Below are positions 8,774-51,324 of a stretch of 64,000 nt of DNA, piece after piece; positions within the stretch are counted from its first letter, which is position 1, and each line of letters begins with the position of its first letter. The position numbers and the translations under genes are program-made. The notes beneath the pieces were generated by a model. The model made no database searches. It had not been told where the DNA came from and was given only the letters and a program-made list of their open reading frames with translations. Origin of the DNA: Thermothelomyces thermophilus ATCC 42464 (lineage: Eukaryota; Ascomycota; Sordariomycetes; Sordariales; Chaetomiaceae); contig NC_016472.1 in NCBI RefSeq assembly GCF_000226095.1, positions 8,866,001-8,930,000 on the forward strand. The letters are read 5' to 3'.

Positions 8774-9866
8774 GGGAGGAGAAGAGTATGTATGACCACT
8801 GACGAACAAAATAGGCCCCTACGCCCCCGCCATCCTGCGCTTCCACATCTCCTTCCCGGACGCCTACCCGGCGCTCCCGCCGCTCGTCACCTTCTCTACC
8901 GACATGTTCCACCCCCTCATCACGCCGCTGACCACGTACATGTACTCGACCGACGTGCAGGACGGCGGCACGGCAAGCGCCAACGACGACGAGCGGCTGC
9001 CCCCCGGTGGCTTCAGTCTGAGGCATGGGTTTCCCGGCTGGTTCGGGCGCGGGAGGAGGGCTGCTGCGGCCGCGGCCATAGCCGTAGCTGCCAAGGCTGC
9101 TTCTAGTAGTGGTGGTGGCGGTGATGGTGGTGGTGATTCGACGGGGGGCTCGGGAGCGAAGACGGAGGGCAACCGGGACGCGGTGGCGGTAACGCCCATG
9201 AGGCCCGTGGCTACGGCCACCGGGACCACGCCCGCGTCAGCCGTGTCGGCCGCCGCGTCCTCGGTTTCGGCGCCCGGCAGCTATGCGCGGACGGGGACGG
9301 GCAGCACCAAGGAGGTGTCGACGTACGAGGTGCTGCGGTACATCCGGAGCACGTTTGACGACGAGGACGTGCTCGACTCGATCCCGCTCGAGGCCGCGGG
9401 GAACCCGGGCGCGTGGCATGCTTGGCGGACGCACCGGCGGCACGTCGCGGCGAAGGGGCCGTCGGGAGCAGGCGAGATTCCCGGGCGGGAAGGCGGAGCG
9501 CAGGCGGACAAGGGTCCGGCTCCCTCGCCGGTGGCTGCAACAGGCGCTGCTGCTTCTGCTGCTGCTGCGGTGGCGGCGGCGGCGGCGGCGACGAAACGTC
9601 CCGACGAGTGGAACTGGGAAGGGGTCTGGGAAGAACGAGTAAAGAGGAATATCGCGTCCAGCTTGTCCGAGGGGGTGTTGTATGGACATGCCGGGGCGCC
9701 GGATGAAGTGGTAACGTTGCCGGTTTCTTCCCTCTCGCTGTGGTGACCCCGGACAGGCTGACCATTTCCCCCACCCCCCCCTTAGATTAACTTCCTGAAC
9801 ATGGACGAAGCCGAGGTCGAAGGGGCGAAGTCCAATCTGCTCCGGACGCTTGGCGCGGCAGCATAG
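8325..9866 (+). CDS. Non-catalytic ubiquitin-E2 variant, AKTIP/FTS-like
   Basis: Four exons (8325-8377, 8489-8583, 8815-9710, 9786-9866) splice in frame to about 375 residues. The first 90 residues are a UBC fold: LKHACPHGIFVSLTPGD, a W-x-GVMFVRKGPYAPA strand pair, then FHISFPDAYPALPP and FHPLITP. The catalytic HPN...C segment of active E2 enzymes is absent; FHPLITPLTTYMY stands in its place, so the protein should not transfer ubiquitin. The FHPL form resembles AKTIP/FTS, the E2-like subunit of the FTS-Hook-FHIP complex that links early endosomes to dynein. A low-complexity Ala/Gly/Ser insert of about 100 residues separates the core from a conserved-looking tail (WNWEGVWEERVKRNI). The last exon encodes only 26 residues. 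The UBC-like fold is confident; the FHF role is inference. Confidence 0.75.
8732..8771 (+). repeat. (GA)n microsatellite inside intron 2 of the E2-variant gene
   Basis: About 20 uninterrupted GA units lie in the intron between exons 2 and 3. The same intron also contains a T run followed by a G run at about 8638-8665. Length polymorphism is expected. Confidence 0.95.
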
Positions 9867-12724: not shown

Positions 12725-14338
12725 TCACCCTCCCTCGTCCGGTTTTCCAGGTTCATCCTCCTCCCCTGATCCAGTTCCTTCCCGGTCTACTGCTTCCTCC
12801 GTCGGCCCATCCCGGCCCACACCCGGCGGATTCCCGTCTTCGTCAAACTCTGCCCACCGAAAGAAGTCGCACGCCTCTTTGCCCGGCACGTTACCGGCGT
12901 GACACATCCAGAAATACCGGCCCCGGTTCTCCCGCTTCTTGGTCGCGACCCGCAGCACGGCGGGGATCCCACACGGGCACCGCGGGGTGTTGCGCGGGTG
13001 GAAGGCGGCGCGGTAGTGGCGGTACGTCACGTTGATGCGCCGGCTGCCCGCGATCGGGTGCGGGTCGATGGCCTGGGCTGGGGCGATGCTGTGCTTCCAT
13101 TCCTCCTGCATCTCGGCGTGCATCACCAGGAGGGAGTTGTGCGGGAGGTGGATGGCGATCTGGCCCGTCAAGTCGGCGTTGCTGTTGCTGTTGCTGTTAT
13201 CGTTATTGTTGTTATTGTTATTACTCTGGTCCCTCGCCTCGGCGCTCGTGCCTGCGTCGTCCTGGGGCAGGATGCGGCGAACGCGGAACTCGCGCGTCAC
13301 GCCCAGCGAGAGGGAGCCGATGACCGGGCGCGGGCCGAGGTAGGTCAGTTGGTCGCTGTGCTGGAATGAATGAATGGAATGGGGTTTTTTTCCGCGTCAG
13401 TCCGGCAAGATTCTCGAGACAATAAGGGGTGGTTGGAAACCTCTCTCCCCTCCTGGTCGAGCAGGCCGATTTGGGGGGGACCTACCCAGCCGACATTCTC
13501 CATTGGCCCGTTGTAGCAGTTCACGAACGCTGCGTTGGGCGTCCATGGCCCGGGGGACTGATACTTGAGCTTCTTGCCGCCGTAGCGAGTGCGGATGCGC
13601 TCCTGGATCTCGCGGTTGACCGCCTCTTGCACGCGGGCCTTGACGCGCTCAAGCTGCGGCGTCAGAGTTCGGACATCCTGCATGCCCATCAGCGCAGAGT
13701 CGAAAGGACGGCGAGCCGGGGGATGTATGGAGAGATACCGTCATCCTGGAACCATTGTACACGTACTCGTGCTTCTGCTGCTGGAGCTCCTTGTAGCTGC
13801 CGACGTAGAAGCCCGTGGTGTGGGGGCTCGAGACGACATTATCAAACAGCTTGAAGGTACTCTTCTCAAACGTTTTGGACTCCTCCAGCAGCTCCTTGAG
13901 CAGGGAGTTCGCCTCCTCGGCAGGCAAGAAGTTGTGGATGACAGTGCAGGGCGTGTGCTCGCTAATGTCGACGGGGTCGTACAGATGGAGCGTGGCCCCC
14001 TTTCGGGAGAGCACCTTGGCCCGCTTTGGCGACGGAGAAGGGTCGACACCGGCCGTGCTGACGGCAAAGGATCGCAGGGAAGACTGCGCAACCACCATAG
14101 ACCCTGGGCCCGGTTTCCTTGGCAGTCGAGCCTTGATGGTCTGCGATGTCGCCTCGACGTCGCCGTCGTGGGCGAGCAGGATGTCAAGCAGCGTCTCCTG
14201 GTCAACAGTCGGGTGAAGCGAGGATAGGATGGCCAGTTTCACATCTGTCGACTCCTCGGGCTCATCCTTGTCCACAGATGGCCCAACAGTCGGGACATGG
14301 TCGGGTTTGCGCTTCTTTCTCGTTACAAAGGCATCCAT
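12725..14338 (-). CDS. CUE-AlkB-GRF fusion: Fe(II)/2-oxoglutarate nucleic-acid dealkylase
   Basis: Three exons (14338-13739, 13677-13486, 13360-12725) splice in phase 0 to 475 residues. Residues about 33-70 form a CUE-type ubiquitin-binding domain (LAILSSLHPTVDQETLLDIL). Residues about 130-385 are an AlkB dioxygenase of the ALKBH2/3 type: FVNCYNGPMENVGWHSDQL contains the iron-binding HxD (H265, D267), the distal histidine is H354 (EEWKHS), and the 2-oxoglutarate site RxNxTxR is R372-R378 (RINVTYR). An asparagine-rich insert (about residues 311-327) sits between the two iron sites. A GRF zinc finger follows (CPCG...RGRYFWMC...CDFFRWAEF), a module that binds single-stranded DNA in APE2 and NEIL3. 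The enzyme should remove 1-methyladenine and 3-methylcytosine lesions in the nucleus. All catalytic residues are present. The gene is divergent from PEX7. Confidence 0.92.
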
Positions 14339-22860: not shown

Positions 22861-23288
22861 TCAACTTTGCCCCGCAGCCTTCTCGGCAGCAATCTTAGCC
22901 TCCATCTTCCTCCTCGCCTCGAGGATCATCTGGTCCCTCCTCCTCTGCAACAGCGACTGCCTTTCCTCGCGGTTCGTGCTCCACCCTTTCCCGGACGTCT
23001 TGCCGCTACCCTCCGGCTCGTCGAGAGGCGCGTTGAGCTTGTCCTTCAAGTTGTACCTCGTAATCAGATCCGGATGGGAGGGGCTGGGAGTAGCAGGTTT
23101 GGACTGCGGCGTCGTGACGTTAGCGCCAGCGTTGCCGCCGCCCGGAGGCGGAGGGGGCTGGAATGTGATGGGTGGCTGTACACAAAAGTTGACTCGTTAG
23201 CCCTTGTTCATCCTCGAAGGAACCAGTGACGATAACAGAAAATCGTGGGACCCATGGAATAGAGGGAAAGGAAGCAGAAGGGCGATGT

Positions 23289-23324
<36 letters not shown>

Positions 23325-23660
23325 TGGACTCACAGTCTCCAGCCTGCCCGCCAGGATCCTCTCCGTCGTGGCAGCCACGTTTCCCCCCGTCCGCTGGAGA
23401 TCCCACAGCGCCGTGCGCCGGTCCACCTGGGGGAACATCTGCTGTATCCTCTCGGCGGCCGCCTCGCGCGCGCGCATCAGCGCCGCCGGGTCGCTTCCCG
23501 CCGCGGCCGCCCTCCCTGAGCGTGGTGACTGTGTTGACGAGGATGAGAAGAAAAAGTAGCGGATGATGAGCCCCGAGATCACCAGGATCACGACGAGCGA
23601 GGGGAGGTTGAGCTGTTGGTCGTCGGCGGCGTCAGGCATGGTGGTCGGCCGGTCGGTCAC
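22861..23660 (-). CDS. Cue1-like ER membrane protein, CUE domain, recruits the Ubc7 E2
   Basis: Two exons (23660-23334 and 23175-22861) give 213 residues; a second ATG at 23639 (MPDAADDQQLNLPS) would give 206 and is equally plausible. A single N-terminal transmembrane anchor (LPSLVVILVISGLIIRYFFF) is followed by a CUE domain (AERIQQMFPQVDRRTALWDL ending ERILAGRL) with the diagnostic MFP. After a Pro/Gly-rich linker comes a helical segment, DLITRYNLKDKL, in the place where yeast Cue1 has its Ubc7-binding region, and then a basic coiled-coil tail (RREEARRKMEAKIAAEK-like). The yeast protein anchors and activates Ubc7 for ER-associated degradation and binds ubiquitin chains. The domain order supports the same role here. 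The intron carries a (GA)n repeat. The fold is confident, orthology likely. Confidence 0.85.
23290..23319. repeat. (GA)n microsatellite in Cue1-like intron
   Basis: About 15 GA units on the + strand (CT on the coding strand) lie wholly within the intron at 23176-23333. Confidence 0.95.
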
Positions 23661-47419: not shown

Positions 47420-50400
47420 TCACTTGAGATCCGCCGGCGTCAGCGCCTGCACCATACTGGTGCCCTCGCTGAACCGGGTGCGGAAGATGCGGTTCGCGTT
47501 CTGGAACATGCCGTCCTTGAGCGAGACGACGATGAACTGGGAGCCCTTGAAGCGCGTCTTGATCAGGCGGCCGATGTTCTGCGTGTGTGACAGGTCCAGG
47601 GCCGCGTCGACCTCGTCCAGGATGTACATGGGCGCCGGCTTGAACTGGAGGAGGGCCATGATCAGGGAGAGGGCAATAAGGGACCTGAATTTAACATGGT
47701 CGGTTAGGTTAGTGCCGGGGGTTTTGGTATTTTCGGAAGCGGGGTTGGAAAGGAGGTGGGAAGGGTCTTCTTCATGGGTGTTGAGGAAAATAAAAGGTTG
47801 AAGGGGGAGGGGTGGAGGGGGGGTTTGGTCGTGAAAGAGACCAAAAACATAACATACCGTTGACCACCGCTTAGTTCGGTAAGCGATTGCTTCCACACCT
47901 TCCCTAGGGACACCTTCACCTCCAGACCGTCCGAGATGGTCTTGCCCTCGGGCGGTTCAAGCTTGGCGAAGCTGCCCGGCAGCAGCTCGGCAAAGATCTG
48001 GCCGAAATCGCTGTTCACCTTCTCCCACGTCTCCTGCAGCGCCTTCTTCTTGTAGTCGTCCAGGCTCACAATCGTCTCCTCGATCTTGCGCTTGTCGCGG
48101 ATGACGGTGCGCATCATGTGCTTGAGCGAGACTTCCTTCTTCTCGACGCTGTCGATCATGTTCATGACCTTGGGGTTGATCTTCTTCCGCAGGCCCTGGC
48201 TGCGCTCCAGCAGGTTCTTGTGCGTCGCCTTGCACTCGGCAATGTTCTGGCCCTTGAAGTCGTACGGCGTCCCCGTCCGGCCGAACTGGTCGCGCGCGTC
48301 CGCGATCCACTCGTGCTCCTCCTCCATCCGGGCGACGCTCTGCGCCGCCGCCTGTTGCTCCTTGTGGAACTTCTCGATCTGGTGGACGAGCTTTTGCCTC
48401 TCGAGCCCTTCTTCGGTGATGCGTGCGTTCTTGGACCGGATGGCTTCCTCGAGCGCGCGCAGTTCGTCGTCGTAAACGTGGAGCTTCTTGCGCTCCTCCT
48501 CGAGCTGCGCCTGCGCCGCGTCGTGCGTCTCCTTGACCTGGCGCTGCTGCTTGACGAGCTCTTCTACCTCTCCCTGCTGAGCCTTGAGCGCGAGATCGAT
48601 CTCCTGCAGCTGTTCCCGTGCTGCGGCCAGGTCGCCCGCCACCTGCTCCGAGTCGAGCTGCGCGGTCTGGAGCTCCTTTTGCAGCGCCTTGTTTGACGCG
48701 TTCGTCTTCTCGACCGCGGCCCGGAGCTTGTCGACCGACGCCTGCAGCTCCACGAGCTTGGCGTCCTTGTTGTTGTCGAAATCCTTCATGTCCTTCTCGA
48801 TGCGCTTGACATCGGCGCTGGCCTCGGCCTGCCGCTTCTTGGCCTCCTCGACCGACTCCTTGAGCTGCGCGACCGTCTCCTTCATGTTCTGCACCTCTTG
48901 GATGATGGACGAGGACGAATTGCCGCCGATCTGCTCCTCGGCCAGCTTGATCTCGTGGGCCTTGAGGTCGAGCTCTTGCTTTAGCCTCTTGGCCTGGTCG
49001 AGCCTGGACTTCTCGCGCGCGATCTGGGATTGCAGCTGGCCGAGCGCCGCCTCCGCTTCTCTGAGTTGCCTCGTGATCTCGTTCAGCTTCTGCAGGGTGA
49101 CCAGCACGCCGCTGGAGTTCGGCGCGCTCCCGCCCGAGAGCGTGCCGGAGGGGTCGTAAGCATCGCCTTCGAGCGTGATGCTGCGCATCCGTACGTTGGG
49201 GTCGAAGGTGACCCTCTTGGCTGTCTCGGCATCTGCGCAGACGAGAGTATTCCCAAAGACATATTCCATAGCCGCCGAGACCTCCTCATCGTAACCGACG
49301 AGAGAGAGAGCCAAGTCGACCTTGCCCGGTGCGATCCGCTGGGCAGTTGCGACGGTCTGAGCGGAGGCTCTGAAGGCGGCGATCTTGTTCAGGGGAATGA
49401 TGGTCACACGCTTCCGCAGTCTACCACCCTGCAAGAGTTGGGTGCCCGTGACTTCGGTGTCCACGACGACGTTGTACAGCCGCCCGCCGGCGCAGATTTC
49501 GAGTGCGGTGGCCGCTTGGATGAACTGCTTGTCGAGAGTGAAGAGCTGTGCCACCAGACCTTTCACTTTTGACCGGTCAAAATTGGGAACCGGGTCTGAG
49601 TAGTGGAAGTCGATGTTGGCGACCTTGCGCTTGAGGGCGTCGGATTCTTGCCGCAGGTTCCGGATGGTCTGCTGCAGCTGGGTCTCTTGTTTGTACAACT
49701 CCCGCTCCGAGCCCGGTTGGAAGCCGAGCTTAGCGAGCTCATGTTCCAGCCTTTGCGCCTGTTGTTTGAGCCCCTCGAGCTCCTCGAGCAGGCCGGCGTT
49801 CTGGTCTCTGGCCCGCACCGCTCGTGGCTCTTCCTCCCTTATCCTCTTCTCAAGATGGGCAATCTTGATCTTGGCCTGTTCCTGCTCCGTCACAGCTGCC
49901 GTCACACGGTTCCTCGCGTCCTGCAGCTGCGCTTGGTACCCATTCCCTTGGCCTTCCTTGGATGCGACGCCGGTCTGCAGGGTCTGGAGCAGTTCTTCCT
50001 TCGACTCCGCCTCCTGACTCAGCTTCTCGGCCGCGTCTTTCGCAGCGTCATACTTTGCCCTGATCTTCTCGTACGTCTTGGTCTTCTCCTTCAGGACAGC
50101 TTCCAGCTCAGCAACGGTCCTCTCGCACCCTGCCCTCCTCTCTTGTTCTTCCGCCATGCTGCTGCGCTTGAGATCGGCGACGGTGGCAAGACGGACCAGC
50201 TCATTGGCATGCTTCTTGACTGCCTCCTCCAGCCCTTGCGCCTTGCCGCCCTTCCGCAACTCCTTGTCTCGTTGCGCCTTGACCCTTTCCAGGTCCTCCT
50301 CCAGATGAGAGATTTCGCTCTTGAGCCGCGCGGCCGATTCCTCCAACTCCTTCTCGCGCTGCTTCTTCGCCTCGAGATCCGAAGCAGACTGTTTCAGCTT

Positions 50401-51324
50401 CTCCTGGCATCGGACGTAATCGTGCGCCACCACTACCCTGGTCAGGCGCTCGAGATCGTTCTGAGTCTGCTGGAAGTCGAGGAACGCGCGCTTTTCGGTC
50501 CGCAGCTTCTCGAGCTTCGGTTCGATTTCGTCGCGGAGCAGCTCCGTGATCTCCTGGAGCTTCATCTCCTTCTTCGCCATGGTCTTGAGCGCCTTATCTC
50601 TCCTGTCCTCGAACATCCTCGTGCCTGCCGCCTCCTCGATCATGGCCAGGATCTCGACAGGCTTCATGTTCAGAACTTTTGTGATGCGACCCTGCATGAT
50701 CAGGAAGTTGGGGTTGTTGATGTTGAGCTGAACCGACTGGAACAGGTTCTGGACCGTCTGCTGTTGCGCGCGGTGACCATTGATCAGGTATTTTGTGGTT
50801 CCGCCGAGGACGATCTGTCGTGTCACGCTGATGGTCGAATATTCCTCGAAGCCGATCGGTGAGCGCTTCTTGTCTCTGTTGTCGAACACGATGGTGACGC
50901 TAGCCTTGGTGACGCCCGCTTGGCCGCGCTTGTAGATAAGATCCTGTCGGCCGGACCGAGGCGTCAGCGCCAGTAAAGCGTGCGGGGGATCGGATGTACC
51001 TCACCTGCAAGTTCTGCGCGCGGACCGTAGACATGTTGGTGATGCCGAGCACGAAGCAGATGGCATCCAGAATGTTGGACTTGCCGCTGCCGTTGAGGCC
51101 GGTGATCGAGTTGAAGCTCTCGTCCCTAGTACCGAGCAAGCGTCAGCAGCAGTGAAGACTCGTGGAATCAGACTCATCGCACCATCCTGATATCACCGTG
51201 CGCACGGCATACGACTTGAAGCCCTGTTGTCCCGGGGGGGGAGAGGGAGTCAGTTTTGCTGCTGCAAAGGAGACGATGGGCACCGGGTTCCGCCTACGTC
51301 GATGATCAATTCCGTCACCCTCAT
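47420..51324 (-). CDS. SMC2: Condensin core ATPase SMC2
   Basis: Five exons (51324-51298, 51223-51183, 51125-51005, 50943-47858, 47684-47420) total 1,180 codons including the stop, the expected length of SMC2. Exon 1 encodes only MRVTELIID; exon 2 is 41 nt. Walker A is GLNGSGKS (residues 32-39), followed by the SMC2-typical [20 protein letters not shown] and [17 protein letters not shown]. Long coiled coils flank the hinge (about residues 510-670; [30 protein letters not shown]). The ABC signature LSGGQR (1087-1092) is split by the last intron, and Walker B is [12 protein letters not shown] (D1115, E1116). SMC2 pairs with SMC4 to form condensin, which compacts chromosomes by loop extrusion. 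No lesion is seen. Identity is certain to subunit level. Confidence 0.97.

Follow-up and report, generated by a model that had tools for sequence, protein, structure and literature searches.

Does a filamentous fungus carry in a single polypeptide the pairing that human cells make between ASCC2 and ALKBH3? The question is raised by a gene in a stretch of 64,000 nucleotides from Thermothelomyces thermophilus ATCC 42464 (NC_016472.1, positions 8,866,001 to 8,930,000; the whole stretch is hereafter called the window), for which a first-pass annotation had proposed a ubiquitin-binding CUE domain, an AlkB dioxygenase and a GRF zinc finger in one protein. The product is best explained (probability about 0.62) as an ALKBH3-like dealkylase with a GRF finger for docking on single-stranded DNA and a CUE-like domain for docking on proteins, ubiquitin binding by the latter being doubtful. 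An Fe(II)/2-oxoglutarate enzyme of this family would strip alkyl groups (as in 1-methyladenine or 3-methylcytosine) from single-stranded DNA, while the C-terminal finger would keep it there, and the N-terminal CUE/UBA-like helix bundle with the linker that follows it would form a putative protein-docking module. The three-part architecture seems to hold at the level of predicted fold. A copy of the human ASCC2-ALKBH3 pairing in one chain is only partly supported, because the CUE-like domain lacks residues that normally grip ubiquitin.

AlkB dioxygenase and GRF finger

The gene is real: it lies on the minus strand and its three exons, separated by GT-AG introns of 61 and 125 nucleotides, encode 475 amino acids (Table 1). 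The catalytic domain was identified with Pfam PF13532 at 139.5 bits (curated cut-off 31.2), and the HxD...H iron triad and RxNxTxR motif are complete, with H265, D267, H354, R372 and R378 all at the numbers first assigned to them. The C-terminal finger likewise passes the cut-off of its profile (PF06839, 41.4 bits against 25.9). Gene, intact AlkB core and GRF finger therefore stand as the first-pass annotation had described them. No match above a cut-off was obtained in a search of NCBIfam profiles, and tblastn searches with the full-length protein and with a 52-residue AlkB core returned no relatives in viral contigs or in prokaryote genome contigs.

In pairwise comparisons with PDB sequences, the solved protein closest to the catalytic part was human ALKBH3 (E 7.3e-10), well ahead of ALKBH2 (E 0.0065). 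The human and fungal enzymes share the AlkB core with its HxD...H and RxNxTxR residues, whereas the human chain is not known to carry a GRF or a CUE domain. The ubiquitin link of ALKBH3 runs instead through ASCC2, according to the available part of PMC8800115. Among fungal proteins, the accessible portion of PMC3265494 places ALKBH11-13, nearly all of them fungal, in a cluster with ALKBH2/3, and includes Pezizomycotina members in its ALKBH16 group; the term GRF is absent from its main text. A Pezizomycotina AlkB protein of similar length (443 against 475 amino acids, compared by description only) is the Fusarium graminearum ALKBH3 FGRRES_16456. The available part of PMC10826363 describes it as close to ALKBH3 of humans and ALKBH2 of Arabidopsis, and the main text contains neither "GRF" nor "CUE".

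The GRF finger matched both fingers of NEIL3 (E 5.7e-10) and, weakly, that of APE2 (E 0.026). A conserved GRF core is common to all three proteins, although it is attached to a glycosylase in NEIL3, to an AP endonuclease in APE2 and to an AlkB dioxygenase in the fungus. By analogy with these two repair proteins, it is a fair inference that the finger docks on single-stranded DNA. A GRF profile search of the genome (38,744,216 bases in 7 contigs, as in all the genome searches below) found the domain in at least two places, namely the AlkB gene and a second locus (L015; G000:C1, about 545,059-548,169). The latter is a frame of 511 amino acids in which the GRF lies towards the beginning; Pfam shows nothing else in it at E 0.01.

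The N-terminal domain and its ubiquitin-contact face

The N-terminus was searched with CUE profiles, as the first-pass annotation had proposed. Pfam CUE (PF02845) did match, at 13.1 bits (E 0.077) with the full protein and at 16.1 bits (E 0.0091) with the first 94 residues alone, both values below the cut-off of 21.1. A second family, DUF7816, gave slightly better scores over a stretch that overlaps this one (15.2 bits with the full protein and 18.9 bits with the 94 residues; cut-off 27). The DUF7816 profile found no match in the genome and was equally silent in control genomes, so that this result does not establish its absence. In a six-frame CUE search of the genome the AlkB-gene segment ranked last of the seven matches at E <= 1 (E 0.237), and it was one of two below the cut-off, the other being L013 (19.6 bits).

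Two small CUE profiles were built, each including human ASCC2. The larger contained six fungal segments, L012 and L013 among them; the smaller contained five, L013 being kept and L012 dropped, as its frame breaks off within the domain. Against the larger profile the N-terminal 94 residues reached 14.9 bits, compared with at most 7.9 among 5000 shuffled sequences (2941 with a reported score), and with the smaller profile a 50-residue segment scored 12.4, compared with at most 11.4 in 2000 shuffles; leave-one-out scores of six other segments ranged from 11.0 to 27.1 with the smaller profile. When 616 window frames were ranked with it, the AlkB-gene frame came second (8.7 bits), only narrowly ahead of an unrelated frame at 7.1; the top frame, at 77.0 bits, was that of L009, which is itself part of the profile. 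When residues 22-76 were searched against PDB sequences up to E 10, no CUE or UBA chain came back. There were eight matches, seven of them designed ankyrin proteins and the eighth a LysR protein, all judged to be due to chance. Sequence alone thus points to CUE without proving it, because the score exceeds those of shuffles yet remains below the cut-off, close to decoys and without a PDB match to CUE or UBA.

A single-sequence AlphaFold2 (AF2) model contained helices at residues 28-41, 47-56 and 61-71, and the first five Foldseek rows for the modelled N-terminus were CUE domains. Foldseek and VIA-align both gave CUE/UBA domains as the best structural matches of the model, and these matches were no worse than those of a clear CUE domain from the window, which served as the only control, a positive one. 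Of the CUE domain first claimed, a predicted CUE/UBA-like fold remains, while the Pfam score is below the cut-off and the ubiquitin-contact motif is degraded.

The contact face was compared by MAFFT alignment with that of ASCC2. In the available part of PMC8800115, L479 and L506 of ASCC2 show large shifts upon ubiquitin binding, substitution of L506 abrogates that binding, and E467 and S470 are used to model the contact with the second (proximal) ubiquitin of a K63-linked chain. The L479 column is hydrophobic in all seven comparison rows and holds H42 in the fungal protein, within the L41-H42-P43 triplet that stands where the CUE MFP motif would be (ASCC2 itself has LLP). The L506 column, occupied by leucine in five of six comparison rows (L010 has alanine, and the row of L012 is cut there), is a gap in the fungal protein, or K69 if read ungapped, with I68 at the first leucine of the pair. 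S30 and V33 occupy the E467 and S470 columns. Neither the MFP-like and di-leucine contact residues nor the K63-selective residues of ASCC2 type (E467, S470) were thus found in the fungal N-terminus, which at the L479 and L506 positions differs from the CUE domains of both ASCC2 and yeast Cue3. TDP2 was also compared; its catalytic domain is of another kind, and its UBA domain is reported as solved bound to ubiquitin.

Binding of ubiquitin in the classical manner, by way of the MFP and di-leucine residues, therefore appears doubtful, since H42, K69 (or a gap), S30 and V33 replace the ASCC2 contacts, although a non-classical mode might still operate. With the same replacements, the proposal that the enzyme is recruited directly by ubiquitin in place of ASCC2 is not supported. 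With a CUE-like fold and an altered binding face, the fusion does not establish an independent evolutionary sign of the human ASCC2-ALKBH3 link.

ASCC partners and rival explanations

The fusion had also been proposed to work without an ASCC2 partner. The yeast RQT complex consists of Slh1, Cue3 and Rqt4 and is recruited by K63-linked ubiquitin on uS10 through the CUE domain of Cue3 (PMC9938168, as far as available), and the same T. thermophilus genome was searched for the counterparts of these proteins. A frame of 725 amino acids (L011) contains a CUE domain above the cut-off (30.7 bits) and matched the CUE piece of human ASCC2 at E 8.3e-7 (402 residues searched) and 1.6e-6 (whole frame). It is likely, although not proven, to be ASCC2/Cue3; the identity goes no further than likely because the match is restricted to the CUE part, and the finding of no other ASCC2 or Cue3 chain outside it, up to E 1 with the 402 residues or E 10 with the whole frame, weighs against it. 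The Sec63 part of a helicase (L020) matched yeast Slh1 best (E 1.5e-95), then ASCC3 (1.3e-93) and Brr2 (6e-88), and is likely Slh1/ASCC3. A 52-residue finger of a zinc-finger gene (L017) matched Rqt4 best (4.3e-13), then TRIP4 (1e-6), and is likely Rqt4/TRIP4. The single AKAP7_NLS gene obtained in a search for ASCC1-like domains (L025) was not taken as ASCC1. With a likely counterpart for each of Slh1, Cue3 and Rqt4, the fusion does not look like a replacement for an ASCC2 that was lost, and the notion of a missing partner is undercut.

These genes bear on the reading closest to the first proposal, in which the CUE domain, by binding K63-linked ubiquitin there, brings the dealkylase of its own chain to alkylated chromatin, as ASCC2 does for ALKBH3. 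The predicted CUE/UBA-like fold is consistent with it, as is the retention of L41 and P43 in a motif that in ASCC2, too, is LLP rather than MFP; nevertheless, with H42 and K69 (or a gap) at L479 and L506, S30 and V33 at E467 and S470, and a likely ASCC2/Cue3 gene elsewhere in the genome, it is considered unlikely. Another view, that the N-terminus only resembles CUE and is either an unrelated bundle of three helices or a separate family (DUF7816, for example), draws on the sub-cut-off CUE score and the higher DUF7816 score on the 94 residues, on the last rank in the genome, on the small margin over window decoys and on the PDB sequence search without CUE or UBA chains. It has to contend with a CUE score above all shuffles and with five CUE domains at the head of the Foldseek result, and is regarded as quite unlikely.

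A further alternative concerns the substrate. Some AlkB homologues act on RNA, and the five of Fusarium graminearum are listed as putative erasers in the available part of PMC10826363, so that the enzyme could be an RNA dealkylase or an N6-methyladenosine (m6A) eraser. Against this, the GRF finger resembles those of the DNA-repair proteins NEIL3 and, weakly, APE2. ALKBH3 as the best solved relative argues in the same direction, a point softened by the fact that ALKBH3 also acts on RNA; action on RNA rather than DNA is judged improbable. A more speculative extension of the preferred explanation, the ALKBH3-like dealkylase with two docking domains, is that fungi merged into one chain a reader, a DNA anchor and an eraser that are separate in animals. 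The GRF finger would read single-stranded DNA and the CUE-like domain a damage signal (ubiquitin bound by a non-classical surface, a modifier that resembles ubiquitin, or a scaffold of the repair machinery), while the ASCC2-containing complex would stay with stalled ribosomes. This is offered tentatively, as something that may well not hold.

Other features, neighbouring genes and significance

Coordinates of the features of the AlkB gene are given in Table 1. The basic stretch near the N-terminus may direct the protein to the nucleus. Binding of PCNA through the PIP-box-like stretch was rejected: the second aromatic residue is absent, and the stretch is not significant because its core pattern also occurred in 205 of 2000 shuffled sequences. 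A pattern search of the protein for the APIM motif gave no match.

Table 1. Features of the AlkB gene, in window coordinates
Feature	Position	Strand	Basis
Whole gene, 475 amino acids, three exons	12725..14338	minus	spliced open frame, GT-AG introns
Exon 1, residues 1-200	13739..14338	minus	spliced frame
Exon 2, residues 201-264	13486..13677	minus	spliced frame
Exon 3 including stop codon, residue 265 onward	12725..13360	minus	spliced frame
Basic stretch, residues 7-11, putative nuclear localisation signal	14306..14320	minus	pattern only
CUE/UBA-like three-helix domain (predicted), residues 28-72	14123..14257	minus	AF2 helices, Foldseek, VIA-align; Pfam CUE below cut-off
L41-H42-P43, where the CUE MFP motif would stand	14210..14218	minus	MAFFT alignment; ASCC2 contacts from PMC8800115 (available part)
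I68-K69, where the CUE di-leucine would stand	14132..14137	minus	MAFFT alignment
PIP-box-like stretch, residues 85-92, without second aromatic	14063..14086	minus	pattern
AlkB 2-oxoglutarate-Fe(II) dioxygenase domain, residues 131-378, crossing both introns	13019..13948	minus	PF13532
Asn/Ser-rich low-complexity insertion within AlkB domain, residues 310-325	13178..13225	minus	sequence
GRF zinc finger, residues 391-435	12848..12982	minus	PF06839

A PF13532 search of the genome gave seven matches, including the gene described here. No CUE or GRF domain was found at E 0.01 (Pfam) in any of five other AlkB frames (L001, L002, L004, L005 and L006), which were scanned as single open frames rather than whole gene models, so that one encoded by a different exon could have gone unnoticed; L007, broken by a stop, was left out. 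Two of the frames (L002 and L006; G000:C4, about 4,239,983-4,243,796) look like parts of one AlkB gene, with an apparent isochorismatase fusion upstream and thioredoxin- and GST-like matches downstream, both below the cut-off. The layout recalls, by description only, the F. graminearum ALKBH2 of 933 amino acids (length from the available part of PMC10826363).

Within the window, a clear CUE gene (23211-23660, minus strand, 45 bits) encodes an apparent N-terminal membrane stretch, recognised by eye, and its closest solved chain is gp78/AMFR (E 8.3e-5); some 9 kb separate it from the AlkB gene, a closeness that is likely a coincidence. A partial UQ_con (ubiquitin-conjugating) match (29.3 bits, profile positions 40-76 of 140) was found at 8796-9743 on the plus strand, and a frame for an SMC protein with a hinge domain at 47707-51000 on the minus strand. 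The divergent neighbour of the AlkB gene, from 15220 onward on the plus strand, is a WD40 frame that reads as PEX7-like.

Searches of an open-access library turned up no paper on a CUE-AlkB-GRF fusion, but the architecture may have been described all the same. It is very probably listed in protein databases and, as a variant of a known repair enzyme, deserves to be recorded. Should the N-terminal domain fail to bind ubiquitin, the protein is a caution against reading function off a CUE-like fold. If the domain does target the enzyme, the way in which dealkylases find damage could be studied in filamentous fungi with a single protein, and the fusion would bear on whether the link between ALKBH3 and the ASCC complex goes far back in evolution or is confined to animals.
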